Positions 58-14,988 of a stretch of DNA of 32,825 nucleotides are shown in pieces; positions within the stretch are counted from its first letter, which is position 1, and each line of letters begins with the position of its first letter. Origin of the DNA: Muribaculaceae bacterium Isolate-104 (HZI). Lineage in GTDB: Bacteria; Bacteroidota; Bacteroidia; Bacteroidales; Muribaculaceae. Location: the NCBI GenBank assembly GCA_003762715.1, contig RIBJ01000049.1, positions 1-32,825 on the forward strand, written 5' to 3'. The notes below the pieces were generated by a model. It did no database searches and had not been told where the DNA came from. It was given only the letters and a program-made list of their open reading frames with translations. A program made the position numbers and the translations under genes.

Positions 58-260
58 TTAAAGTTAATGCACATATCCTTAATTACTTATCAAGTGATGC
101 AAACATAAATGTCATCGCCACATTAGAGGATAACTTCGGTTCCACTCCGTGGGAACAGACATTTGAGTTCAACGACAATGATAGCGATGACAACGGCGGT
201 ACAGGAAGTCTGGTCGTGACACCCATCAATCCCGGAACAGTAACACCCATCGGCAAATGA
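54..260 (+). CDS. Small hypothetical protein, possibly TraQ/DUF3872 C-terminal remnant
   Basis: A 68-residue frame with start ATG at 54, translationally coupled on both sides: ATGA overlap with the upstream frame and again with the lysozyme gene at 257-260. Residues about 12-41 include LEDNFGSTPWEQTFEFND, which resembles the final strand pair of the conjugative-transposon protein TraQ (DUF3872), whose members end in a DNFG...FxFN pattern. Family TraQ proteins are about twice this length and normally start with a lipoprotein signal, which is absent here. The tail is acidic then Pro/Thr/Gly-rich. A position just before a lysozyme gene is where traQ sits in many Bacteroides ICEs as I remember them. 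This may be a truncated or frameshifted traQ, or an unrelated small protein. Confidence 0.45.
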   Translation: MIKVNAHILNYLSSDANINVIATLEDNFGSTPWEQTFEFNDNDSDDNGGTGSLVVTPINPGTVTPIGK

Positions 261-784
261 AGAAACTCCTGATACTCTTTGTGGCATTGTTTTCCATTGT
301 GGGAACAATGCCCGGCAACGCCGCCTCACAGCGAACTGCCCCCGCAAGGGAGCAGAAAACAAAAAGAAGCATCTTGGAATTGCCGCTCTTTGAGCGTGCA
401 GTTCTGATAATCAAAAAGTTTGAAACACTGCACAAACCGAAACATTGGCCCTACGTTGGATATGGTCACCAAGTCCAACCCGGAGAACCCTATCGCCGGG
501 GAGTCCAGCTGACCGAAGCCCAAGCCGATGCACTTCTTCGCAAAGACTATTCCAAATTCTGCGCACTGTACGAGAAATACGGCAAAGACAAATATCTCCT
601 CGCTGCCCTCGCATACAACTGTGGACCCGGTGTAGTCAACAAGTCCAGCGTCCTCCGCCTCTTAAAATCAGGAAACCGCAACATCTTCAAAGCCTACACC
701 TCCCATTGCCACTATAAAGGCAAGAAACACAAAGGTTTGTTAACCCGGCGGCTAACGGAATTTGCCGCCCTGTTCATTCCTTAA
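257..784 (+). CDS. Secreted GH24-type lysozyme (conjugation-associated)
   Basis: A 175-residue peptidoglycan hydrolase with an N-terminal signal peptide (residues 1-23: MKK, hydrophobic stretch, then GNAAS), so it acts in the periplasm. The core from about residue 45 has the phage-lysozyme pattern: IIKKFETLHKP with candidate catalytic Glu56, then YVGYGHQ (66-72), the LTEAQADALLRKD helix and ALAYNCGPG, which matches the ALxSFxFNxG motif of GH24 enzymes. Family enzymes cut the MurNAc-GlcNAc bond. In Bacteroides ICEs a lysozyme gene closes the tra operon and is thought to open the wall locally for the mating channel. Here it is coupled by ATGA to the gene before it and followed by a hairpin at 808-838, consistent with the end of an operon. 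Confidence 0.85.
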   Translation: MKKLLILFVALFSIVGTMPGNAASQRTAPAREQKTKRSILELPLFERAVLIIKKFETLHKPKHWPYVGYGHQVQPGEPYRRGVQLTEAQADALLRKDYSKFCALYEKYGKDKYLLAALAYNCGPGVVNKSSVLRLLKSGNRNIFKAYTSHCHYKGKKHKGLLTRRLTEFAALFIP

Positions 785-807
785 ATTCAATACAATATGT
801 GACACCG

Positions 808-838
808 AGGGGATGCACTTTTTCGGAGTGCGTCCCCT
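808..838 (+). terminator. Hairpin after the lysozyme gene
   Basis: Inverted repeat AGGGGATGCAC / GTGCGTCCCCT (808-818 and 828-838) with a 9-base loop; 10 Watson-Crick pairs plus one G-T wobble. There is no uniform T-run behind it, so it is a probable rather than a textbook terminator. It lies 24 bases after the lysozyme stop and before the recombinase promoter region. Confidence 0.6.
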
Positions 839-866
839 TGCTGTATCTTATTGTAAAATAAATTTC
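838..866 (+). promoter_or_regulatory. Putative weak promoter of the tyrosine recombinase
   Basis: TTG at 838-840, an 18-base gap, then TAAATTTC at 859-866, one base off the Bacteroidota -7 consensus TAnnTTTG. The recombinase ATG at 875 would follow almost directly, giving a very short leader. Confidence 0.35.
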
Positions 867-874
867 AAAAAGAA

Positions 875-2077
875 ATGGCTTCGATAAAAGTAAAGTTCAG
901 ACCCTCGACTGTCGCTGACCACGAGGGTACAATCTACTATCAGATTCTTCATGAGAGAAAGCCGCGACAACTTCTCTCGGATTACCACGTCTTTCAATCT
1001 GAATGGGACGAAAGCCGGGCAATGGTGGTAACTACACAAAACAGTGAGAGAAAGGCTTTCATCCTCTCAATCCGGGAAAGAATCCGTTGGGATGTGGAGC
1101 GACTTACCAAGATAGTAAGAAAACTTGACGGTAATGGTCTGCAATACACAGCAGATGATGTCATTGATGAGTTCAACCGATATGCACAAGAATACTCACT
1201 GTTCAATTTCATGGAGAGCATCATCATTAAATTGAAACAGAATGGCAAAGTCAGGACTTCCGAAACATATACATCTGCTCTCAACAGTTTCAAGAAGTTC
1301 CGTAAAGATGAGGATATAATGCTTGACTGCCTTAACTCTGAAGTAATGGAGGCTTATGAGGCATGGCATCAAAGCCGAGGCGTTGCACCGAATACAATAT
1401 CGTTCTATACCCGTATTCTTCGGGCTGTATATAACCGTGCTGTTGAGGAAGATATTGTCGAGAACAAGAATCCATTCCGACATGTATATACTGGCGTGGA
1501 CAAGACTATCAAGAGGGCATTGCCTCTTCCTGTCATCAAGAAAATAAAAGCGTTGGATTTATCCCTTACTCCTGCGCTTGACTATGCCCGCGACATGTTC
1601 ATGATGAGTTTTATGCTCAGGGGAATGAGTTTCATAGATATGGCTTTTCTGCGTAAAACAGACCTACAGAACGGCTATGTCACATATCGCCGCCGAAAAA
1701 CCGGACAAAAGTTGGTGATTGAATGGACTAATGAAATGCAGCTTATCCTTGATAAATATCCGGAGAATGCGTCGGATTATCTACTGCCCGTTATCCGCAA
1801 TCCCGGAACCAACGAAAGATGTACCTACCACAACATGGGATATAACATCAATCACAGTCTTAAGGCTGTTGCCAAGGTTGTCGGAGTTTCAATCCCTCTT
1901 ACACTTTACGTTGCCCGGCACTCTTGGGCATCAATAGCAAAATCAAAAGGTATTCCCCTCAGTGTTATCAGTGAAGGTATGGGGCACGACAATGAGGCTA
2001 CGACTCAAATCTATCTCGCTTCTCTTGACTCATCAGCAGTAGATAAGGCCAACTCTCTAATTCTTAAATCCATATAA
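875..2077 (+). CDS. Tyrosine recombinase (integrase/invertase type)
   Basis: A 400-residue site-specific recombinase of the Bacteroidetes integrase group. Residues 1-100 fit the arm-binding domain, about 105-205 the SAM-like core-binding domain, and 215-395 the catalytic domain. Catalytic residues visible: Arg249 (MLRGMS), Lys about 276 (RRRKTGQKL), Arg348 and His349 (YVARHSW; the first His of HxxR is Tyr345, common in Bacteroidetes members), His371 (GMGHDN) and nucleophile Tyr380 (TTQIYLASL). The gene looks complete. Its stop is followed by a terminator (2088-2118) and then by a pair of palindromic sites with inverted centres (2130-2340). It could therefore be the invertase for that segment, or the integrase of the cargo element; position favours the first, but many integrases sit beside their own att site. 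Confidence 0.9.
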   Translation: MASIKVKFRPSTVADHEGTIYYQILHERKPRQLLSDYHVFQSEWDESRAMVVTTQNSERKAFILSIRERIRWDVERLTKIVRKLDGNGLQYTADDVIDEFNRYAQEYSLFNFMESIIIKLKQNGKVRTSETYTSALNSFKKFRKDEDIMLDCLNSEVMEAYEAWHQSRGVAPNTISFYTRILRAVYNRAVEEDIVENKNPFRHVYTGVDKTIKRALPLPVIKKIKALDLSLTPALDYARDMFMMSFMLRGMSFIDMAFLRKTDLQNGYVTYRRRKTGQKLVIEWTNEMQLILDKYPENASDYLLPVIRNPGTNERCTYHNMGYNINHSLKAVAKVVGVSIPLTLYVARHSWASIAKSKGIPLSVISEGMGHDNEATTQIYLASLDSSAVDKANSLILKSI

Positions 2078-2087
2078 AGACATGAAT

Positions 2088-2118
2088 GCCTCGGTGCCAA
2101 TCCGCATCGAGGCTTTTT
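2088..2118 (+). terminator. Rho-independent terminator of the recombinase gene
   Basis: Stem GCCTCG-g-TGC (2088-2097) pairs with GCA-t-CGAGGC (2104-2113), followed by TTTTT (2114-2118). It starts 11 bases after the recombinase stop and separates it from the invertible segment. Confidence 0.8.
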
Positions 2119-2129
2119 GTTTAGCGTTT

Positions 2130-2156
2130 ATCCAAATCTCTTGTTAAGAGATGGTT
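2130..2156. repeat. Left recombination site of the candidate invertible segment
   Basis: A 27-bp site made of ATCCAA, a palindromic core ATCTCTTgttAAGAGAT (2136-2152), and GGTT. The right site (2314-2340) is identical except that the 3-bp centre is AAC, the reverse complement of GTT. The cores are thus in inverted orientation. Short symmetric arms around an asymmetric centre are what a tyrosine recombinase crossover site looks like. Confidence 0.75.
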
Positions 2157-2165
2157 ATAGCCTTG

Positions 2166-2173
2166 CAAAGTTA
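2166..2173 (-). promoter_or_regulatory. -7 promoter box inside the invertible segment, facing left
   Basis: On the minus strand the bases read TAACTTTG, a full match to TAnnTTTG, followed by CAAGG. A T-rich run precedes it; no clear -33 TTG is present at the usual spacing. In the present orientation it would transcribe into the 3' end of the recombinase gene, where the terminator at 2088-2118 lies in the opposite sense. Confidence 0.55.
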
Positions 2174-2313
2174 CAAAAAAATGCTGAATTATGACGAATT
2201 GGCACAGGTATTTAACTGTTTTACGCGTCGAAAATTCTACAAAATTCAAAGGTGTTTAGGGATTTCAATTAAGTTGGCAGTGTACTCGGATGATAATCAA
2301 TAGAATATCTCTC

Positions 2314-2340
2314 ATCCAAATCTCTTAACAAGAGATGGTT
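2314..2340. repeat. Right recombination site of the candidate invertible segment
   Basis: ATCCAA, core ATCTCTTaacAAGAGAT (2320-2336), GGTT. It ends 11 bases before the ATG of the restriction gene, so a promoter brought to its left side by inversion would serve that gene with a short leader. Confidence 0.75.
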
Positions 2341-2351
2341 GCTCCGACACT

Positions 2352-5300
2352 ATGAAATTTGATGAAATTCTACATAAATTCAGGGCTGAATCGTTCACCC
2401 AGAGAGATAAAGGGACGCAGTTTGAACGCTTAATGCGCTCGTGGCTCCTATCGGATCCCCGATATTCAAACCTCACGGATGTTTGGCTATGGGAAGACTT
2501 TCCATGTCGCCGAGACTTCGGAGGTTCTGATACCGGAATTGACCTTGTCGCCCGTACCGACACCGGACAATACTGGGCTATCCAATGTAAATGCTACAAA
2601 GAGGATGCCGTTATTGACAAACCAGCTGTAGATTCTTTCCTCGCTACATCAAGTCGCACATTCACTGATGTAGATACGTTGCAAACCACATCCTTTTCAC
2701 AAAGGCTATGGATTTCAACAACAAACCATTGGGGTAGAAATGCTGAAGAATCCATACAAAATCAGCATCCCCCGGTCAATCGTGTCGGACTTGTCGATTT
2801 ACAAATTTCTCCCGTTGATTGGAAACTCCTTCTCGATGGATTGACAGGTAAAAGTGCTTTGGTTGAAGGAAAGAAACCAATGCACCATCAACTAAATGCT
2901 ATCTCTGAGGCTGATAAATATTTCTCGAACCACGACCGAGGCAAACTCATTATGGCTTGTGGCACAGGTAAAACCTACACAGCCCTGAAAATAGCCGAAC
3001 AGATGCTGCCAGATAAAGGACTCGTTCTTTTCCTCGTGCCGTCAATTTCGCTTCTCGGACAAAGTCTCAATGCGTGGTGCGCCGATGCAACAAAGCCAAT
3101 AAAGGCTATCTGCATTTGCTCAGACGCTCGTGCCTCTCGCAAAATCAAGAAAGATTTTGACGATACTAACGACTCGGTAGTTGACCTCGCAGTTCCGGCA
3201 ACCACCAATCCCAAAAGTATTGCCAAACAACTCGAATTATACCGCTCACACGATGGGTTGACAGTTGTGTTCTCAACTTATCAATCCATCGAAGCTGTCC
3301 GCGCTGCACAGGTTGAAAACCTCAAAGAAACCGGAGGCTCATACGGCACATTTGACCTTATCGTCTGTGATGAAGCGCATCGCACAACCGGCGTGAAACT
3401 CTCCAACACTGACGAGAGTAACTTCACCAAGATACATGATGCAGATTATATCAAAGGCTTAAAGCGTCTTTATATGACGGCAACTCCTCGCCTGTATGGA
3501 GACAATGCCAAAGCGAAAGCTTCTGAAAAAGACGCTGTCCTTTGTTCAATGGACGATGCCGCACTTTATGGAGAAGAATTTTTTCGTGTCAATTTCTCCT
3601 ATGCCGTTGAACATGGACTTTTGACAGATTATAAAGTGCTTGTCCTCACCGTCAACGAAGATGATCTGCCCGCCAACGTCCTCAAAGACATAAAAGACCC
3701 TAATAACACCGAACTTAATTTTGATGATACATCAAAGCTAATCGGTGTTATCAACGGTCTCTCCAAAATTATCCGTGGCGATAACAGAGTTACTTGGGAT
3801 AATGACCCCTGTGTAATGCAGCGTGCTATCGCTTTCTGCTCCGCAATCGGTGATGCCAAAAGTCCCGGTACTTCTGTGAATACCTCAATGGTATTGCCGA
3901 AAATTTGTGAGACATACCGCGACTCAATAGACCCCGAAGAACGCGAACACGTTGTAGAGGTGTCTGCCCGACATATTGACGGATCTATGAACTCGCAGAC
4001 TCGTAACGAACAACTTGCGTGGCTCGCTGATGAAAATCTCGCTGAAAACGAGTGTCGTGTATTGACTAATGTCCGCTGTCTATCAGAAGGCATAGATGTT
4101 CCGGCACTGGACGCAGTGCTTTTCCTTTCATCGCGCAACTCTCAGGTGGACGTGGTGCAGTCTGTTGGTCGTGTAATGAGAAACTTCCGGAAAGGTCAAC
4201 CCGGCGAGAAGAAATATGGCTACATCATTATCCCTATCGTAGTTCCTTCGGACGTGAAGCCCGAAGACGCTTTGGATAATAACGTCTATTTCTCGACCGT
4301 GTGGAGCATCCTCAATGCGCTACGCTCACACGATGACTGTTTCAATGCCGAGGTCAATAAAATTGCACTCAATAAGAACAAGACTTCAAAGGTTATAGTT
4401 GGTGGCCCCGGCATCGGGCATAATGCTCTTGGTGGTGACTCTCAAGACCAACGTGACGCAGAGCAACTCGAAAACGCAGAGGTAGCTCGTCAACTTGAAC
4501 TTCGTTTTGGGGAAATGCAGTCTGGCATTTACGCTAAACTCGTTGAGAAGTGTGGCGACCGCCTCTATTGGGAAAACTGGTCAAAGAAAGTCGGCCTGAT
4601 TGCACGAAAAATTATTGAGCGTATTACCAAACTCGTCAAGAACGTACCGGAAATTAACACAGAGTTCTCAATATTTGTCAAGGGCTTGCAGCAAAACCTC
4701 AATCCTTCCGTTGACGAAGGTCAGACGATTGAGATGTTGGCTCAACACCTCATTTCTCAGCCAGTTTTCGACGCATTGTTTAATGACTATAATTTTGTCA
4801 ATAATAATGCTGTCAGCCGCTCTATGCACCGCATGATTGAATTGCTGACAGAAGTCGGAGGTTTTGAGAAGGATACAGCTGAACTTGAACAGTTCTACAA
4901 TTCGGTTCGTGTAAATGTAGGTAACATTGATAATTTGGAGGGTAAGCAGACCATAATCAAGAACCTCTATGAGAAGTTCTTCAAAGGTGCGTTTCCTCTC
5001 ACTGTTGAAAAACTCGGTATAGTTTACACTCCTGTTGAGTGCGTTGACTTCATTATCCATTCGGTCAACGATATTCTGAAACGTGAGTTTAATTCATCGC
5101 TCTCCGATGAAAATGTCCACATCCTCGACCCATTTACCGGCACCGGTACTTTCATTACCCGATTACTCCAATCAGGACTCATCAAGCCCGAAGATATGGA
5201 GCGTAAGTATCTCCATGAAATCCACTGTAATGAAATTGTCCTCCTCGCATATTACATCGCAGATGTCAATATAGAGGCTGTGTATCATGAGCTTGTTAAG

Positions 5301-7289
5301 CCAGATCATTACGTCAACTACGATGGTATATGTCTGACCGATACTTTCCAACTCGCAGAGTCAAAACAAATGACCCTCTCAGAAGAATTTTTCCGCGAAA
5401 ATTCCGAGGGAGTTATGCGTCAGAAACGTGCTCCAATCCGAGTTATCATCGGCAACCCTCCGTATTCTGTAGGGCAGAAATCCGCAAATGATAACGCTGC
5501 AAATCTTACGTATCCAATTTTAGATAAGCGTATTTCAGAGACATACGCCAAAGATAGCAAAGCCAGTTCTGTGAAGGCTCTATATGATAGTTATATAAAG
5601 GCTTTCCGTTGGGCTTCTGACCGCATTGCTGATAACCCTGAGGGTGGTATTGTCGCGTTTATAAGTAACGGTTCTTGGATTGACGGTAACGGTAATGACA
5701 TTATGCGCGCTTGCCTTGAAAGCGAATTTAGCGACATCTATGTTCTTAATCTTCGCGGAAACCAACGCACCAGTGGCGAATTATCTCGCAAGGAGGGGGG
5801 TAAAATTTTTGGAGGCGGCTCTCGTACTCCCATTGCAATTACATTCCTCGTTAATAACCCTGCCAAAGCAGGTCTGAAAGCCACCATTCATTACCACGAC
5901 ATCGGCGACTATCTAACGCGCGAGCAAAAACTTGACCTTGTGAAGAAATTCCGCTCAGTTGACGGACATTCACTTGATTGGCAAATCATTGAGCCAACCG
6001 ATCGCCACGATTGGATTAACCAACGTGACGGCTTGTTTGATACTCTTATTCCTCTATTCCCAGATAAGAAATTTGATATGAACACAAAAAGTGTGTTCAC
6101 TACTTATTCATTAGGGACGGCAACGGCTCGTGATGCTTGGGTTTACAACTTTAGTACAGAGCAACTAAGAGAAAATATGGGAAAGACGATTGCTTTCTTT
6201 AATGAAGAAAGTAAGCAATCAAGCACCAATCCAGATTTTGAATTATCTAACGACAGTACAAAAATCAGTTGGAACGACTCTCTAAAAAGCCTTTGTCGAA
6301 ATGGGGAAAGCCTCACTTATGACTCGACTTTTGAAATAATTGGTTCTTATAGACCTTTCTCAAAAATGAACCTTTATTTTCAAAAGGAGTGGATACAACG
6401 TCCATATCAATTGCCTAAATTCTTTCCGGCCTCCACTGAAAATAATGTCGTTTTAGGCGTTAGTGGTATGTCGGGAAGTAAGCCTTTTTCTACACTCGTG
6501 AGTGATGTAACTCCCAACTTACATCTGAATGAGAATGGGCAATGTTTCCCTCTCTATTGGTACGAAGAAAATAAAGTTGTTGAAAGGTCATTGTTTGATG
6601 ACGAAACCAACTCTGAAAAATATGTCCGTCGGGATGGTGTCTCCGACTGGATATTGAAAGAAGTACGCAAACGTTTCGGAAATTCCAAAGCTATTACCAA
6701 GGAGCATATCTTCTATTATGTTTACGGCATACTTCACTCTCCACAGTATCGTGAGCGTTTTGCAACCGACTTAAAGAAGTCGCTACCACGCATCCCCATT
6801 GTGGATAAAGTAGAGGACTTTATGGCATTCTACAAAGCTGGTAAAGCCCTTGCAGAACTACATCTCAATTATGAGCAAGTTCCAGCTTTTCCAGCTGTCA
6901 ATGTAGTTCAAGCGTGTGTTGACCCTAAACCGGGTTATACCGATTTTGACTACTATGAAGTTGACAAAATGGTATTTCCAAAAGTCCGTAACAATTCTGG
7001 TAAACTCGTTTCTGACAAATCCCGCATCATCTACAACGGTAATATTACCATTGAGAATATACCGGCTAAAGCCTACGAATATGTTGTCAATGGCAAATCT
7101 GCTATTGAGTGGATTATGGAACGCTATGCTATCACGCAAGACTCCAAATCACTCATCATCAACGACCCCAACGCTTGGAGTCGTGAGCATAACAACCCCA
7201 CATACATCTACGATCTGCTCCTTTCAGTAATTAACCTCTCGGTACAGACCGTTGACATCGTCAACTCACTTCCTAAACTCAAACTCTAA
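2352..7289 (+). CDS. Type ISP (single-polypeptide) restriction-modification enzyme
   Basis: A 1645-residue enzyme combining all functions in one chain, the size and order of LlaGI/LlaBIII. N-terminal Mrr-like PD-(D/E)xK nuclease: GGSDTGIDLVAR (about 57-67) and QCK (78-80). Superfamily 2 translocase: Walker A ACGTGKT (202-208), DEAH (340-343), TATPR (376-380), and motif VI QSVGRVMR (603-610). Adenine N6-methyltransferase: motif I DPFTGTGTF (926-934) and motif IV NPPY (1035-1038). The remaining 600 residues hold the rest of the methyltransferase and the target-recognition domain. Family enzymes methylate one strand of an asymmetric site, and translocate and cut when two unmodified sites meet head to head. 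The chain looks intact. It is the first gene of the run downstream of the invertible segment, so both activities would switch together; no separate methyltransferase is needed for self-protection. Confidence 0.93.
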   Translation: MKFDEILHKFRAESFTQRDKGTQFERLMRSWLLSDPRYSNLTDVWLWEDFPCRRDFGGSDTGIDLVARTDTGQYWAIQCKCYKEDAVIDKPAVDSFLATSSRTFTDVDTLQTTSFSQRLWISTTNHWGRNAEESIQNQHPPVNRVGLVDLQISPVDWKLLLDGLTGKSALVEGKKPMHHQLNAISEADKYFSNHDRGKLIMACGTGKTYTALKIAEQMLPDKGLVLFLVPSISLLGQSLNAWCADATKPIKAICICSDARASRKIKKDFDDTNDSVVDLAVPATTNPKSIAKQLELYRSHDGLTVVFSTYQSIEAVRAAQVENLKETGGSYGTFDLIVCDEAHRTTGVKLSNTDESNFTKIHDADYIKGLKRLYMTATPRLYGDNAKAKASEKDAVLCSMDDAALYGEEFFRVNFSYAVEHGLLTDYKVLVLTVNEDDLPANVLKDIKDPNNTELNFDDTSKLIGVINGLSKIIRGDNRVTWDNDPCVMQRAIAFCSAIGDAKSPGTSVNTSMVLPKICETYRDSIDPEEREHVVEVSARHIDGSMNSQTRNEQLAWLADENLAENECRVLTNVRCLSEGIDVPALDAVLFLSSRNSQVDVVQSVGRVMRNFRKGQPGEKKYGYIIIPIVVPSDVKPEDALDNNVYFSTVWSILNALRSHDDCFNAEVNKIALNKNKTSKVIVGGPGIGHNALGGDSQDQRDAEQLENAEVARQLELRFGEMQSGIYAKLVEKCGDRLYWENWSKKVGLIARKIIERITKLVKNVPEINTEFSIFVKGLQQNLNPSVDEGQTIEMLAQHLISQPVFDALFNDYNFVNNNAVSRSMHRMIELLTEVGGFEKDTAELEQFYNSVRVNVGNIDNLEGKQTIIKNLYEKFFKGAFPLTVEKLGIVYTPVECVDFIIHSVNDILKREFNSSLSDENVHILDPFTGTGTFITRLLQSGLIKPEDMERKYLHEIHCNEIVLLAYYIADVNIEAVYHELVKPDHYVNYDGICLTDTFQLAESKQMTLSEEFFRENSEGVMRQKRAPIRVIIGNPPYSVGQKSANDNAANLTYPILDKRISETYAKDSKASSVKALYDSYIKAFRWASDRIADNPEGGIVAFISNGSWIDGNGNDIMRACLESEFSDIYVLNLRGNQRTSGELSRKEGGKIFGGGSRTPIAITFLVNNPAKAGLKATIHYHDIGDYLTREQKLDLVKKFRSVDGHSLDWQIIEPTDRHDWINQRDGLFDTLIPLFPDKKFDMNTKSVFTTYSLGTATARDAWVYNFSTEQLRENMGKTIAFFNEESKQSSTNPDFELSNDSTKISWNDSLKSLCRNGESLTYDSTFEIIGSYRPFSKMNLYFQKEWIQRPYQLPKFFPASTENNVVLGVSGMSGSKPFSTLVSDVTPNLHLNENGQCFPLYWYEENKVVERSLFDDETNSEKYVRRDGVSDWILKEVRKRFGNSKAITKEHIFYYVYGILHSPQYRERFATDLKKSLPRIPIVDKVEDFMAFYKAGKALAELHLNYEQVPAFPAVNVVQACVDPKPGYTDFDYYEVDKMVFPKVRNNSGKLVSDKSRIIYNGNITIENIPAKAYEYVVNGKSAIEWIMERYAITQDSKSLIINDPNAWSREHNNPTYIYDLLLSVINLSVQTVDIVNSLPKLKL

Positions 7290-7301: not shown

Positions 7302-8279
7302 ATGAAGCAACCAATTCTATCACAAGAGATTGCTATTACTCTTCAACAATTAGAGGGAATAGGCAACAAGACAATATTATCTAAGATAGGTGGTATTGTT
7401 TCCTCTCCTATTACTACTTTGGAAGATCTCTTATCCTTTTGGAGAAATCTTAAAGGGAAGAAATTTGAGGCTATCTCAAATGATGATATTAAAGAGGCAA
7501 ACCGTATCGCTAAAAGGATTATTAGCCGTGCAGTAGATGAAAATGTCGGTATAATTACTTACTACGATGAAGAATACCCAGAAATACTACGCCAATGTAC
7601 TGATGAAAAGGGTAAAATAGATGTACCCCTCATTTTGTATTATCGGGGAAACCTCAAAGCATTACAAATTCCCGGCATAGCAGTAATTGGCACCCGAGAG
7701 CCGACACCTAATGGGGTTAAGGCTGGAGAGTATTTTTCTGGCGAGTTTGCTAAACGGGGCTTCAATATAGTTTCCGGACTTGCTGTTGGATGTGATACTA
7801 CCGGACATATAGGTGCTCTGCAAGTAAATGGAATTACCACAGCATTTCTTGCAAATGGACTCGATTGGGAATCCATTTATCCAAAGGAAAATCTCGAACT
7901 GGCTAAAAGAATAGTAGCTAATAATGGACTCTTGCTTAGTGAGTACCCCGTTGGACAGAGTTGCGGAAGGTATGGATTGGTTGCTCGTGACAGATTACAG
8001 GCTGGATTAGCGAGAGCAACTCTTGTTGTGCAGACTGGAGTGACAGGAGGCACAATGCACGCTGTCAATGCGACTATCGCATCAAAGAAACCACTTTTCG
8101 CTGTAGAATACAGAAACAATGTGGATATAAGCCATGAAAAAGTCCAAGGTAATATCATGCTTCTCCGTGAGAAAGGCGCGATACCTCTACGCTCTAATGG
8201 CATAGATTCCGCAGTAGCCATCATTAGAGGTACAGACGATAAGCAAGTCGCAGTTACACAACCATCATTATTCGATTGA
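7302..8279 (+). CDS. DprA/Smf-like protein (ShosA-like candidate)
   Basis: A 325-residue protein with the DprA Rossmann fold: IAVIGTREP (126-134), SGLAVGCDTTGHIGAL (158-173; canonical DprA has SGLARGID..AH), LANGLDWESIYPKEN, LLSEYPVG, and the distal helix LVARDRLQAGLARATLVVQ, where canonical DprA has RNRIISGL. The N-terminal part looks like the helical/HhH region (QLEGIGNK). DprA binds single-stranded DNA during transformation, but versions in defence loci pair with phosphoribosyltransferase toxins, as reported for ShosA/ShosT. The loss of the canonical ARGID and RNR motifs and the absence of a winged-helix tail suggest a specialised form. It starts 12 bases after the restriction gene and ends 3 bases before the HAD gene, so it is in one transcription unit with both. 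Confidence 0.85.
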   Translation: MKQPILSQEIAITLQQLEGIGNKTILSKIGGIVSSPITTLEDLLSFWRNLKGKKFEAISNDDIKEANRIAKRIISRAVDENVGIITYYDEEYPEILRQCTDEKGKIDVPLILYYRGNLKALQIPGIAVIGTREPTPNGVKAGEYFSGEFAKRGFNIVSGLAVGCDTTGHIGALQVNGITTAFLANGLDWESIYPKENLELAKRIVANNGLLLSEYPVGQSCGRYGLVARDRLQAGLARATLVVQTGVTGGTMHAVNATIASKKPLFAVEYRNNVDISHEKVQGNIMLLREKGAIPLRSNGIDSAVAIIRGTDDKQVAVTQPSLFD

Positions 8280-8282
8280 GGT

Positions 8283-8780
8283 ATGAAAAGCGTGATATTT
8301 GACTTAGACCTCACTTTGATAGATACGACTTGTTTAGAGCCATTACGCCATGAAAGAAGGTGGCAAGAAGCGTATCAAAGGATACCCGAAACTACGATGT
8401 ATGATGGTATGGCTGAAGTGTTGGATATTATACGCAGGCATAATATTCCTTGTTCCATTGTAAGCACTTCACCACGACCCTATATAGAGAAGATTGTCGC
8501 GCACTATAATCTTCCAATACAACATATAGTATCCTATCACGATGCCAAACCAATTAAGCCTCATCCTGCGCAGATGTTAAAGGCTCTTGAGATGATGGGA
8601 TTACCTGCTAATAAGGTTATCTCATTCGGAGATAGAGTCATCGACATTGACGCATCAAATGCTGCCGGAATTGAGAGTGTGGCTTGTTTTTGGGGCACCA
8701 AAGAGAAAGGAGAACTACTGCGTAGCCAGTACAGCCATGCCATTATCTATCCTAAAGAGATTCTTACTCTAATTCGTTAG
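8283..8780 (+). CDS. HAD-superfamily hydrolase
   Basis: A 165-residue phosphatase-type protein. Motif I is FDLDLT with nucleophile Asp7 and acid Asp9; motif II is the Thr/Ser of IVSTSPRP; motif III is the Lys in HDAKPIKPHP; motif IV is FGDRVIDIDASNAAG. A short helical cap lies after motif I, as in phosphoglycolate phosphatase and nucleotidase relatives. The substrate cannot be told from sequence. Lying between DprA-like and HIRAN genes with 3-base gaps on each side, it probably works in the same system, perhaps on a phosphorylated sugar, nucleotide or DNA end; this last point is inference. Confidence 0.85.
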   Translation: MKSVIFDLDLTLIDTTCLEPLRHERRWQEAYQRIPETTMYDGMAEVLDIIRRHNIPCSIVSTSPRPYIEKIVAHYNLPIQHIVSYHDAKPIKPHPAQMLKALEMMGLPANKVISFGDRVIDIDASNAAGIESVACFWGTKEKGELLRSQYSHAIIYPKEILTLIR

Positions 8781-8783
8781 TCT

Positions 8784-9860
8784 ATGTTTTCGCCAGCAGA
8801 TGCCCAATATATTGACGGAGTAGTAGAATTACATGCTCAACTAAATGCCGCTTATAGGGCCGCATATAAAATAGCCTCTCGATACATCCCCTTACCTGTA
8901 ACCGAAATAAATAGGTATTATGATACGGGAACTTTTCGTGTGTTTGTTGATTCAAAAGACGATAGAGAAATATACACACCATTAAAAGCCTATTTTATTT
9001 TCGGTAGGTATATATGTAGGTTTTTGCCTGTGACTATTGAGTTGGCAGCTCTATACCCAGTCCGAGACCTAACAGGATGTGATGATAGCAATAAACGGAA
9101 AGGTTTATCATCAGAAGATTTAGCTACTATTGGTTTATTCGATGAAGTACTTCTTTTTTCTCCTAAAGAAGATTCAAGAGTGTCTTATCCCTTGTATAAT
9201 ATATCTGAGAAGAACCAGTCTTCTGTTTGGGAAACAAAACTTGATGATATAGGACTGCCATTCTTTAACTTTTCTGATATACAATCATTGAGCTTGTTTC
9301 CTTTACCTGATTATATTTTATCAAGTCAGTACTCTTTAGTCGGGATACAACATTATGCACCCTTAACCAAATTGAACAAGGAAATAGACTGTGTGCTATA
9401 TGCAGAAATTTCAAATCCTCATGACCCTTGCGCAATTAAAGTGCTTAGATGGTTTCCTCAGAAAAGGAATGAAGTTCAGGAAAAGAAACTCAATGCCTTT
9501 CTTGCAAAAGAGAGACTTAAAAGAGTGCAAAGAAGTATAATTAAATATACCGATATAATGTTGGAGGCCAGTGGTCGAATAGATTATTGCGACACTGGTT
9601 TGCGAAATTACAGACAAAAAGAATCTGAGTTAAAGAAGACTATTGATTCGGAGGATTATGTAGGTGATTACTTTTTTGAGTTAGGCTATGTTTCACGCCA
9701 AGAAAACTCATCTCTACATTCTTTTATGGTTGAGAATAATTCTCGAATCCTTTTTGGCAAATGCAAAGATGGCCGAATAGTAATTACAGGAGGAATTAAC
9801 TCCTTAATAGACAGTGAATATAATTTACCATTTTGCTTATCTAATCTGACTATTGAATAG
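8784..9860 (+). CDS. HIRAN-domain-like protein of unknown function
   Basis: A 358-residue protein without a recognisable enzyme motif. Residues about 185-225 fit a HIRAN domain: LVGIQHYAP (185-193) and AEISNPHDPCAIKVLRW (207-223), close to the family signature EPdNpyDpnAIxV. HIRAN domains in HLTF/Rad5-type proteins bind exposed 3' DNA ends; bacterial copies are found with nucleases and in mobile elements. A Lys-rich helix follows (240-265). No signal peptide or membrane segment is seen. The sequence is clearly more AT-rich than the restriction gene upstream. It sits 3 bases after the HAD gene and one base before the ATG of the PRTase gene. A role in sensing abnormal DNA is a reasonable guess from the domain. 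Confidence 0.7.
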   Translation: MFSPADAQYIDGVVELHAQLNAAYRAAYKIASRYIPLPVTEINRYYDTGTFRVFVDSKDDREIYTPLKAYFIFGRYICRFLPVTIELAALYPVRDLTGCDDSNKRKGLSSEDLATIGLFDEVLLFSPKEDSRVSYPLYNISEKNQSSVWETKLDDIGLPFFNFSDIQSLSLFPLPDYILSSQYSLVGIQHYAPLTKLNKEIDCVLYAEISNPHDPCAIKVLRWFPQKRNEVQEKKLNAFLAKERLKRVQRSIIKYTDIMLEASGRIDYCDTGLRNYRQKESELKKTIDSEDYVGDYFFELGYVSRQENSSLHSFMVENNSRILFGKCKDGRIVITGGINSLIDSEYNLPFCLSNLTIE

Positions 9861-12004: not shown

Positions 12005-13951
12005 TTATTTCTTGATAGGGTCCTCACTCAAATGAATTGTTTCCATACCTTCCTGATGATCCATTCCGGGATTGTCAGAATACCATTTGTACATACTACC
12101 TGCTGAGAATTTAATCTTCATAGCGATGTTGCCATTGGGAAGAAGAGTGCGTTCAACAACCTCGCTATCTCGATATAATTCATGCTGGAACGGTATCTTT
12201 GTTGAATATCCGTTAAAAGACAGTTCGTCAGACGACTCACTGGTGATTCCAAAACAATATTTCTGACATCCTATCTGTAAGTCTTGCGCTCGTTCATCAT
12301 TTGGAATCATCTCAAACGACAAAATAGTATCCTTTGGCATTGGCTTTACGTAAACACCATTTTTGAGATAACTCAAAAGAATCATTGTCTTCTCATAATT
12401 GTCGGGAGTGTATTCCTCATATGATGAGAATGGCATTCCAATCAGATCTTCCAATTCGTTGACATTCTCATAATATGCTATCCTCTTGTCAAAGTCAGTT
12501 TCCCCGAGTGAATTTTTTGGTGTTTCAAGTGTAAAAGGAGAGCCTCCATTGTACAGGCGTGAAAAGATAACATGTTCTCCTCTCCATATTGCCTGCAATA
12601 GAGTCATCCAATGTAACGCTTGATTATTGTCAGTATATTTCTTTTTGAAATCTACTTGCATATTGACATTGAGGTTATTGGACTTTTGGAAGTCAAAAGA
12701 CATTTTAAGGAGATAGCTGTCGGTGTTCAACACAAATGTAGCTTCGTAACCCTTCGAGCTATATTTGATTAACTTTATATTTTCACGAAACCGTTGGCTT
12801 GGTATCTTTATCTGGCAACTAATCTCCTCGTGTACCGGAGCCACAAAAATATTGGAAATATCGGATTTATCAGAGAATAGAACACCATTGACCGTATAAT
12901 CAAAAAATTGCAGCTCATCCGATGTGATTTTCAGACTTGGGATAGGTACGCCATGATACATTAAGATGTCATTGTATGCCCTTTCGTCTGAAAGAAGTTT
13001 CCTTGCCAATTCATTAGAGGTACGGAATTTTATAGTGTGCTTGCCATCATCTAACACTCGTATATTCTCAACGCTATTTTTATCGGATGTTGATTTCAAT
13101 TCAACATCCAAATTTCTATGACGGCAGTAGATATGAAAGGTGTCCTCCGATACACGTCTGCGCTGTGCATCATGAACAATGTTTTTATCCAACTCAAGGA
13201 ATAAATCTTTGAAAAAAACTTCTGCTTTAGCATCGTAATACTGCACACCAATACGTTCAAGCCGTTTCCTCTTCTGGGAGGTCATTCCCGGAGCAATCAG
13301 GAAAATTGGATTCGTCACGCCGTTTGATTGCTCCTTTACACGTTTGATAAGAGTATAGATGTTATCATCTTCCAGACTATACCCTATGAAAAGAATGGGG
13401 TGAGTGGCAAATTCTGCCTTTACAACATCCCATATCAGTTCATTCCTTTGAGACCTATAGAAATCGAAGTAATCATCTTTCGTAATCAGTAAATCATCAG
13501 GATAATCAAAGTCTCCATGTATTTTGAAAACTGTAACCCTTGCGGCATTAACGTTGTGGACATCCTCGTTTCGCTTTACAACTACACAGCTATCACCGTA
13601 GGCTTTTTCCAAAAGATAGTCATAATTCGTTGTAAATATGCGCCTGAAATGTGGAATGGCTGCAAGTGATTGGTGATCCGAGAAATCTACGATGGAAAAA
13701 TCAAACAAGGGTCTCAGTAGTTCAATCAGTTTTCTACGATTCCCATCGTTATAATCGATGTATTCTTTTGCAAGAACATCCAATGGATGGTTAGCATACC
13801 ATTGTCTTTCATCTTTTTCAAAATCATTCAATATGTGCTCAGTAAGCAACTTGCAACTTGGAGCACCGGCTTTGAGGGAGAAGCCAGCGCCCAAAAACAA
13901 AGAAACCTGCTCTTTGCGTATTAAATCTATGACGGCTTTGTATTGGGACAT
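12005..13951 (-). CDS. SIR2-like NADase-type defence protein
   Basis: A 648-residue protein with an N-terminal SIR2_2 domain (about 5-260): FLGAGFS (19-25), TTNYD (107-111, Asn109 expected to contact NAD), KIHGDFD (143-149, His145 as catalytic His), and PILFIGYSLEDDNI. SIR2 domains of this type in phage defence (Thoeris ThsA, DSR1/DSR2, SIR2-HerA) usually degrade NAD+ on infection. The remaining 390 residues are rich in beta-strand-like alternation and match nothing I recognise; by analogy they are the sensor or regulator. It is transcribed towards the PRTase gene and is a stand-alone gene. Its start lies about 50 bases from the NUDIX gene, which runs the same way, so a shared transcript is possible. 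Confidence 0.85.
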   Translation of the reverse strand: MSQYKAVIDLIRKEQVSLFLGAGFSLKAGAPSCKLLTEHILNDFEKDERQWYANHPLDVLAKEYIDYNDGNRRKLIELLRPLFDFSIVDFSDHQSLAAIPHFRRIFTTNYDYLLEKAYGDSCVVVKRNEDVHNVNAARVTVFKIHGDFDYPDDLLITKDDYFDFYRSQRNELIWDVVKAEFATHPILFIGYSLEDDNIYTLIKRVKEQSNGVTNPIFLIAPGMTSQKRKRLERIGVQYYDAKAEVFFKDLFLELDKNIVHDAQRRRVSEDTFHIYCRHRNLDVELKSTSDKNSVENIRVLDDGKHTIKFRTSNELARKLLSDERAYNDILMYHGVPIPSLKITSDELQFFDYTVNGVLFSDKSDISNIFVAPVHEEISCQIKIPSQRFRENIKLIKYSSKGYEATFVLNTDSYLLKMSFDFQKSNNLNVNMQVDFKKKYTDNNQALHWMTLLQAIWRGEHVIFSRLYNGGSPFTLETPKNSLGETDFDKRIAYYENVNELEDLIGMPFSSYEEYTPDNYEKTMILLSYLKNGVYVKPMPKDTILSFEMIPNDERAQDLQIGCQKYCFGITSESSDELSFNGYSTKIPFQHELYRDSEVVERTLLPNGNIAMKIKFSAGSMYKWYSDNPGMDHQEGMETIHLSEDPIKK

Positions 13952-14001: not shown

Positions 14002-14511
14002 TCAATCTGTTTTCAGTAATTCTTTGTACTTGCGGTAAAGGAGATGCTGTGTGTTGCCGGGGCGGTCGGGGAACATTCTTGTGGGGGCTTCCTCCAACGG
14101 TATCCATGAAACACCGTCAACCTCTGACGATGTGGAGAAGTCCGCTTTCTTGACAATGCCGATATAGGCGTGCATCAGTTGTTCTCGCTTGTCAAACCAG
14201 TGGGTGCCCTCATATATCAGATTCTCTACTGTCAGTCCAAGTTCTTCCTTGACTTCACGTGTTGCCGCTTCCTCAGCATTTTCGCCCGGTGTGATATAAC
14301 CTGCGACAAATGTTTCATACTGTTCGGAGATATATGACTGCTTGAGAAGTGCTATCTCATGCAGCTCGTTAACGACCATGACAATCACGCAACTTGAAAA
14401 CGAATCGAACCAATACCGCTTGCAGTTATTACAGTACGGCACAAGACCATCATCACCGGCTTGCCGTCCGATGAGTTTTGCGCCACATTCGGGACAATAC
14501 TTATATCTCAT
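14002..14511 (-). CDS. Zinc-ribbon NUDIX hydrolase
   Basis: A 169-residue NUDIX protein. An N-terminal zinc ribbon uses Cys6, Cys9, Cys27 and Cys30. The NUDIX box is at 71-93 (G..T/PGE...EAA.REVKEELG pattern, with Glu85-90 region binding the metal). The arrangement resembles the C-terminal half of NAD+ pyrophosphatase NudC, but NudC's following SQPWPFPxS motif is absent, so the substrate may be another nucleoside diphosphate derivative. It is the last gene of a HU / miniprotein / NUDIX operon, with its ATG three bases after the miniprotein stop. Confidence 0.88.
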   Translation of the reverse strand: MRYKYCPECGAKLIGRQAGDDGLVPYCNNCKRYWFDSFSSCVIVMVVNELHEIALLKQSYISEQYETFVAGYITPGENAEEAATREVKEELGLTVENLIYEGTHWFDKREQLMHAYIGIVKKADFSTSSEVDGVSWIPLEEAPTRMFPDRPGNTQHLLYRKYKELLKTD

Positions 14512-14514
14512 ATC

Positions 14515-14685
14515 TCAATCCCAGTCATTAAGGCTGGCTATTATTCGGTCGATGTCACTTTCATCAAAAATCTCCAGCTGTCTCTCGTGGCAATTATGGC
14601 AATGACATTCGCCCTCACAATGGCAGTTACAGTCAGGAGTCAGTTCTTCAACCGCGCTTTCGCCATATTGGTTTTCCTGTTCCAT
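14515..14685 (-). CDS. 56-residue Cys/His-rich miniprotein
   Basis: A small frame on the minus strand, ATG at 14685 and TGA at 14515-14517. It begins MEQENQYGES, has a central cluster CNCHCEGECHCHNCHE (residues 19-34; six Cys and four His), and an acidic C-terminal helix ending DIDRIIASLNDWD. It starts one base after the HU stop and ends three bases before the NUDIX ATG, so spacing supports a real gene in this operon. The cluster could bind Zn, Cu or an iron-sulfur centre. I know no named family for it. Confidence 0.7.
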   Translation of the reverse strand: MEQENQYGESAVEELTPDCNCHCEGECHCHNCHERQLEIFDESDIDRIIASLNDWD

Positions 14686-14686
14686 A

Positions 14687-14962
14687 TCACTGACCCACCT
14701 CCTTCTTGAACTCGGCCGATGGTTTGAAGAACGGGATATTATGTGCCGGGATTACGATAGTGGTATTCTTTGAGATGTTGCGTGCAGTTTTTTCAACACG
14801 TTCCTTAACTTGGAATGTGCCAAAGCCACGGAGATATACGTTCTCACCGTGTGCGAGGCTGTCTTTTACTACGACCATAAATTGCTCAACCATCGCGAGA
14901 ACACTTGCCTTGTCAATCCCTGTGGTCGTCGCTATCTCGTTTACTATATCTGCTTTAGTCAT
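14687..14962 (-). CDS. HU-family DNA-binding protein
   Basis: A 91-residue HU/IHF-fold protein, typical length. The N-terminal helices (MTKADIVNEIA, VEQFMVVVKDSL) are followed by the GENVYLRGFGTF signature, a basic KTARNISKNTTIVIPAHNIPFFKPS DNA-binding arm region including the Pro of the intercalating tip, and the C-terminal helix. It bends and packages DNA as a dimer. It is the first gene of the three-gene leftward operon and is preceded by a good -7 box at 14989-14996. HU paralogs occur both on Bacteroidales chromosomes and in their mobile elements. Confidence 0.93.
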   Translation of the reverse strand: MTKADIVNEIATTTGIDKASVLAMVEQFMVVVKDSLAHGENVYLRGFGTFQVKERVEKTARNISKNTTIVIPAHNIPFFKPSAEFKKEVGQ

Positions 14963-14988
14963 TTTGCGTACTTATCTGATTTATACTG

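Follow-up and report, generated by a model that had tools for sequence, protein, structure and literature searches.

The stretch of Muribaculaceae DNA analyzed here (the window, 32,825 nucleotides) carries, between a tyrosine recombinase gene and a five-gene defence operon, a short segment that we read as a recombinase-flipped promoter switching the operon on and off in individual cells. We put the probability of this reading at roughly 0.9. Action of the adjacent recombinase on the sites, flipping of the segment in this strain and the resulting transcription are inferred from the sequence. The features of the locus are as follows.

144-784, plus strand: end of a TraQ-like gene and a phage-lysozyme-like gene (257-784; Phage_lysozyme), the tail of a transfer operon
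875-2077, plus strand: tyrosine recombinase of 400 aa, presumed invertase (Arm-DNA-bind_5, Phage_int_SAM_5, Phage_integrase)
2088-2123, plus strand: predicted intrinsic terminator of the recombinase gene (stem-loop 2088-2113, T-rich tail)
2130-2156, plus strand: putative left recombination site (palindrome 2136-2152, core GTT at 2143-2145)
2153-2319, no strand: predicted invertible segment of 167 bp
2166-2173, minus strand: -7 box TAACTTTG, directed toward the recombinase gene and away from the operon (OFF)
2314-2340, plus strand: putative right recombination site (palindrome 2320-2336, core AAC at 2327-2329)
2352-7289, plus strand: type ISP restriction-modification enzyme of 1645 aa (Mrr_cat_2, ResIII, ISP_coupler, Type_ISP_C)
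7302-8279, plus strand: DprA/ShosA-like protein of 325 aa (PF02481; ShosA 6.2e-62)
8283-8780, plus strand: HAD-family phosphatase-like protein of 165 aa (HAD_2; 79% identical copy in L218)
8784-9860, plus strand: protein of 358 aa with homologues in L179 and L218
9853-11901, plus strand: ShosT-like phosphoribosyltransferase domain protein of 682 aa (ShosT 3.6e-12 over residues 451-667)

The segment is framed by a perfect 17-bp inverted repeat (2136-2152 and 2320-2336) enclosing 167 nt. The initial annotation had described two 27-bp sites, identical except for a 3-bp centre, GTT against AAC, that is inverted between them, and had placed the recombinase gene 52 bases to their left; both points were reproduced on re-reading the sequence (2130-2156 versus 2314-2340; open reading frame 875-2077 versus 2130). 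The size of the core needs amendment, however, as the variable inverted core in relatives is 5 bp long (e.g., AAATA/TATTT); the 3-bp centre appears to be the portion of a 5-bp core that happens to be non-palindromic at this locus. With up to two mismatches, the palindrome occurs three times in the window, twice perfectly, versus 0.25 expected from dinucleotide shuffles.

The consensus -7 element of Bacteroidota promoters is TAnnTTTG. Its sole perfect occurrence in 2078-2352 is TAACTTTG on the minus strand, 13 nt from the arm; single-mismatch boxes number eight, of which two are on the plus strand. Inverted repeats around a promoter with the -7 consensus, as expected of an inverton, are thus present, and the earlier statements that the only full box points away from the operon and that the switch is presently OFF agree with the direction of this box. 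The segment is intergenic and without coding DNA, which sets it apart from hsdS-type inversions with specificity-subunit DNA inside the segment. Reflecting the segment arithmetically moves the box to 2299-2306, 45 bases 5' of the ATG at 2352, close to the approximately 40 bases estimated before. In the flipped order, the right site, folded alone, is predicted to make a 12-bp hairpin within the leader, before the start codon.

In the mechanism we propose, a 167-bp invertible promoter cassette would sit, together with a tyrosine recombinase gene, at the end of a conjugative element's transfer operon. The recombinase would pair the palindromic sites in inverted alignment, the only one in which the cores match, and invert the segment. 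In the present orientation the promoter would fire toward the recombinase gene and leave the five-gene operon silent, and inversion would bring the -7 box 45 bp before the restriction gene, with transcription of the whole five-gene run. Since nuclease and methyltransferase form one polypeptide, restriction and modification would be turned on and off together.

A search for two perfect sites 135 to 195 nt apart in 397 Muribaculaceae genomes found pairs at 68 places, in 53 genomes and 11 of 30 genera, and the reversed pattern used as a control gave 0 in the same 397 genomes. The site consensus is TCTCTN5AGAGA. The core triplet differs between loci, and its two copies are reverse-complementary at all 68 places (68/68, read by eye from the listing). 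Since strand exchange needs matching overlaps, inverted, matching cores point to inversion as the outcome. Furthermore, 84 distinct segments, some of them near-alike, were picked by their arms and inverted cores and not by a promoter; they are 125 to 235 bp long (median, 169 bp). An outward-facing TAnnTTTG lies 8 to 20 nt from the arm in 80 of these, most often at 13 nt, compared with 0 facing inward and a mean of 1.8 (maximum, 7) in shuffled segments. Only one of the 84 has boxes at both ends, which suggests mostly one-promoter switches in this set. The genome of the window itself (G000; 2.84 Mb, 80 contigs) contains six perfect single sites, which make up three pairs: that of the window on contig C20 (GTT/AAC), C16:12078-12268 (GGC/GCC) and C49:2498-2709 (GGT/ACC).

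A tyrosine recombinase adjoins the window switch, and the predicted terminator (RNA fold of 2078-2130, -23 kcal/mol, z = -4.9) sits between its gene and the switch. We examined the best 80 relatives of this recombinase; the titles of their records name Muribaculaceae, Porphyromonadaceae, Bacteroidales or similar taxa, and in a few cases others such as Clostridia. Allowing at most two mismatches in the fixed site letters and between the arms, and including near-copies such as L097 and L150, a switch lies within 1 kb downstream in 40 of the 80; when only the 66 loci extending 700 bp or more past the gene are considered, 38 have one and 28 do not. This linkage bears on the possibility that the switch is real but is inverted in trans by a recombinase encoded elsewhere in the genome, the adjacent gene being the element's integrase or redundant. 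G000 does hold three recombinases, namely the window's own (100%) and those on C16 (79% identical) and C11 (61%), both candidates for such action, and switches without a recognised adjacent recombinase occur (C49 in G000, and the one upstream of a type ISP gene in G163). The recurrence of recombinase and switch together in half of the relatives, and of a recombinase beside the switch in two genomes with type ISP cargo, speaks against it, and we consider action in trans unlikely, although it keeps some weight.

The 42 linked switches comprise 32 OFF, 4 ON (L124, L136, L137 and L147), 1 scored as both and 5 without a box. In G383, two contigs with shared flanks carry a 91% identical segment that is inverted between them; by BLAST, the flanks agree at 95% over 148 bp on one side and in 21 identical bases on the other. 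This appears to be a naturally flipped pair that represents the kind of switch rather than the locus of the window, which is present in one orientation (OFF) in a single assembly. For the kind of switch, both orientations are therefore seen, in the G383 pair and beside the recombinase relatives. The site pairs in relatives, the fixed outward box, the two orientations and the inverted pair together support the invertible promoter that had been proposed. The excess of OFF among linked switches (32 versus 4) and a degenerate copy in G375 would also suit a former switch that is now locked OFF, or kept there by selection, leaving the operon effectively silent. At the window, though, the recombinase reading frame is open, the arms are perfect and the cores match, and ON copies exist at other loci, so we regard a locked switch as improbable.

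The sequences around the palindrome differ by position. The seven bases adjoining TCTCT were compared in 41 single-orientation switches beside recombinases (36 of the 42 linked ones, the window, two on C16, L178 and L221), which are related loci and not independent. ATCCAAA, matched in at least 5 of 7 positions, occupies the recombinase-side outer half in 36/41 and the promoter-distal inner half in 30/41, compared with 0/41 for the promoter-proximal inner and 2/41 for the cargo-side outer half. In these latter two halves the commonest letters are ATAAGTA, weakly so on the cargo side. At the window, the left outer and right inner halves are of the ATCCAAA type (A) and the left inner half is of the other type (B). 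While the switch is OFF, both sites are therefore A|B hybrids, which makes them resemble direct repeats with an inverted centre; a flip would give A|A and B|B sites. A further 43 switches, at other loci, have an ATAAGTA-like promoter-proximal half in 29 cases and a mixed distal half (15 versus 15), which confines the full pattern to the recombinase-linked switches. Our hypothesis is that the half-site asymmetry biases the direction of switching; alternatively, some of the ATAAGTA bases may have a role in the promoter. In Escherichia coli fimS, the tyrosine recombinases FimB and FimE invert a promoter, and differences between half-sites bias the direction. Inversion by tyrosine recombinases is what we propose here as well, but the fimS sites are unrelated to those of the window.

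Window positions 144-2125 align at 73.5% with C16 14569-12596 of the same genome, where TraM, DUF4138 and TraQ genes (TraQ at 14462-14983) precede the lysozyme and recombinase genes. The homology of C20 and C16 ends at 2125, just short of the left site, and the cargo then differs. In the window the transfer genes amount to the operon tail, at which the contig begins, plus PcfJ and PcfK. The cassette thus appears to be placed at the end of a conjugative transfer operon. Partial matches were found in 4 plasmid records, recombinase relatives of up to 55% identity in 68 phage records, and an 83% identical recombinase with a switch in a viral_contigs record (L221). That the conjugative element uses the repeats for attachment or resolution, without a promoter switch, could be suspected from the C16 recombinase following a tra operon and from homology stopping just before the left site, but it is very improbable, being disfavoured by the inverted cores at every one of the 68 places, which indicate inversion rather than excision, as well as by the fixed distance of the -7 box from the arm and the naturally inverted pair of G383.

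The genes that the promoter would control form an operon, in which four genes follow the first with spacings of at most 12 bp or with overlap. The first gene encodes a single polypeptide that combines a Mrr-like nuclease with helicase, coupler, methyltransferase and specificity domains, as is characteristic of type ISP enzymes, and contains QCK, GTGKT, DEAH, DPFTGTG and NPPY, which we take to be its main catalytic motifs. Comparison with the PDB showed similarity to LlaBIII over the whole length and to LlaGI over most of it; the likeness to these enzymes, with their common type ISP domains, concerns the enzyme sequence. The remaining genes partly recall the Shosta layout, with a strong ShosA match (6.2e-62) and a weak ShosT match (3.6e-12) limited to the C-terminal domain. 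Ahead of that domain the 682-aa protein has approximately 450 residues without assignment, and near full-length homologues of it exist in L179 and L218. The HAD gene and the 358-aa gene stand between the ShosA-like and ShosT-like genes. The 358-aa protein had no match in Pfam, PADLOC or NCBIfam, and its predicted structure (mean pLDDT, 52) was set aside. G375 shows the same gene order, with a HAD match of just 29 residues, and the final four genes also occur together in G262 (L218), with no type ISP match in the 350 bp upstream of this module. With a type ISP restriction-modification enzyme and ShosA- and ShosT-like genes, the assignment as a defence operon made at the outset is supported. On the opposite strand, a SIR2-domain gene (12005-13951, minus strand) faces the operon; its product starts like ThsA and ends like AbiGii, and G091 has a copy with 57% identity at a distance of several kb from its type ISP operon.

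Type ISP relatives were found in 11 of the 397 genomes at E 1e-60, the window's own included. Eight other loci with the 5' end in view were compared, after L173 (without the N terminus and with an internal stop) and the partial L176 and L177 had been dropped. A switch lies just upstream of the type ISP gene in three of the eight (G274, G111 and G163), preceded in G274 and G111 by a 52 to 54% identical recombinase. The switches of G274 and G163 are in the OFF orientation, and that of G111 has no perfect -7 box. G375 has degenerate sites and a one-mismatch box facing the type ISP gene. The other four (G042, G150, G009 and G034) have no switch directly upstream, and in G150 a fixed -7 box faces the gene. 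None of the eight carries an intact switch in the ON orientation. No type ISP gene matched in the 80 recombinase loci and the other loci compared with them. The pairing of type ISP gene and switch thus seems to recur in several genera without being obligatory. In G163 (L185, reverse strand 4918-5123), the right arm overlaps the type ISP start codon, and no recombinase was recognised in the upstream stretch when its open reading frames were inspected by eye. A GGC/GCC pair lies approximately 1 kb upstream of the type ISP gene in G042 (L180, reverse strand 1729-1909); it was left uncounted because a lipoprotein-like gene stands in between.

Cargo was surveyed by listing the genes downstream of 37 switch loci and scanning 106 genes from 30 of them, seven truncated or near-duplicate loci being omitted. 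L090 carries SspB, SspC, SspD and PbeA, and tblastn found the same four in L145, the switches of both being OFF, and SspB with a cut SspC behind the OFF switch of L144. Further cargo includes an EcoRI-type methylase (L162), caspase-like proteins (L088 and L114), TerD (L089), a kinase with FHA domain (L092) and SrfB (L087). NusG (three) and the T6SS protein TssC (one) were also among the 106 scanned genes. Of 20 proteins scanned singly, six had no match; peptidases, transporters, HSP70 and surface-type repeats were among the matches to the others. The cargo behind these switches accordingly looks broader than defence alone. A wider reading, offered as a whole and tentatively, would be that recombinase and promoter form an interchangeable cassette on Muribaculaceae conjugative elements, behind which whole defence or conflict systems are swapped in: type ISP with Shosta-like genes, SspBCD-PbeA phosphorothioation, EcoRI-type methylase, caspase, TerD and kinase-FHA operons. 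The cassette might then be built to rest OFF, with ATCCAAA/ATAAGTA hybrid sites in the OFF state and A|A and B|B sites in the ON state, and the recombinase might read the state from the sites, so that the population keeps a rare ON minority.

Comparison with published switches draws on excerpts of the cited papers. Similar in layout are the invertible promoters on Bacteroidales integrative and conjugative elements (IP-ARG classes), with a recombinase gene, an invertible promoter just downstream and highly variable cargo in which genes for resistance and glycans predominate; in one class two switches adjoin each other, as on C16 here (PMC8748976). The cargo named in that excerpt consists of resistance, glycan-synthesis and T6SS genes, in contrast to restriction-modification and Shosta-like genes in the window. 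Capsular polysaccharide switches of Bacteroides and Parabacteroides resemble ours in their palindromic inverted repeats (such as GCTACTYRGNRAGTAGC) with a short asymmetric centre, an upstream integrase and an invertible promoter, and are operated by tyrosine invertases or integrases (PMC12118408). Their segments, as excerpted, measure 183 to 345 bp compared with 125 to 235 bp here, and they control surface polysaccharides rather than a defence operon; the site here is the TCTCTN5AGAGA palindrome. One capsule locus with an upstream recombinase and an invertible promoter, the inversion of which was shown by PCR, is interrupted by a gene with restriction-enzyme and helicase domains (PMC13114119). 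As excerpted, that is one gene inserted in a capsule locus beside a defective recombinase, whereas here the defence operon itself is the cargo.

Restriction-modification systems are among the listed targets of DNA inversion (PMC12632263), and inversion within restriction subunit S genes alters type I systems (PMC11892184). In the latter, as excerpted, coding segments are exchanged and the specificity changes, while a geneless segment here would affect how much of the entire enzyme is made. Control of methyltransferase expression by invertible promoters has been put forward as a widespread mechanism (PMC10333322, in part), so that a promoter switch on a methyltransferase is an idea already in print. 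A promoter switch for a whole defence operon was not found among the titles and abstract openings listed, in searches that did not include the names type ISP and Shosta. The mechanism is of a known kind; what appears to be new here are the site family and, as target, a complete defence operon behind conjugative transfer genes.

If the switch works as proposed, most cells of a clonal gut population could be spared the cost and possible self-harm of the operon while a few express it, as a bet-hedge against phages or incoming DNA, and the switch would ride on DNA that may move between strains by conjugation. Counts of defence genes in genomes could then overstate their expression, since the orientation of a 167-bp segment would decide it. 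The system also makes testable how cells survive when a restriction enzyme comes on over an unmethylated chromosome, and the half-site asymmetry offers a direct experimental handle on what sets the ON/OFF ratio.

Three further ideas were pursued and rejected. The core triplet as an address of the locus, with avoidance of shared cores, was not supported: across the 13 genomes that have more than one switch, a core class is shared by 3 of 17 locus pairs (counted by eye) compared with 1.2 expected, although the perfect pairs of G000 itself have three different cores. Switch-linked recombinases did not form one clade, with 20 changes on the tree against 23.2 for shuffled labels and 46 of 500 shuffles as low, the tree being a quick one with weak support and some of the "no" labels doubtful (e.g., L151, which has a pair). 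Contig breaks in the switch, taken as a sign of mixed orientation, were dropped, since 12 of 80 contigs end 60 to 320 bp past the recombinase but 8 of 80, counted by eye, start within 310 bp before it.

Several other switches and recombinases deserve mention. The third recombinase of G000 (C11; L026 7374-8537; 61%) adjoins a glutamate dehydrogenase gene, and no site pair was recognised in its vicinity. On C16 (L024 12078-12585), two switches stand in tandem with the cores GGC/GCC and AAACA/TGTTT, both facing the recombinase; the operon behind them encodes proteins of 450, 128, 535, 1126 and 827 aa, of which only two have Pfam matches, both weak. Tandem switches also occur in L087 and L089, and L115 has a second, 75% similar segment approximately 1.7 kb behind the first (3468 and 5174). 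The C49 switch (L025 1817-3390) lies between divergent NusG/UpxY-like genes of two polysaccharide loci, where one promoter would choose between the two loci rather than turn one on or off.
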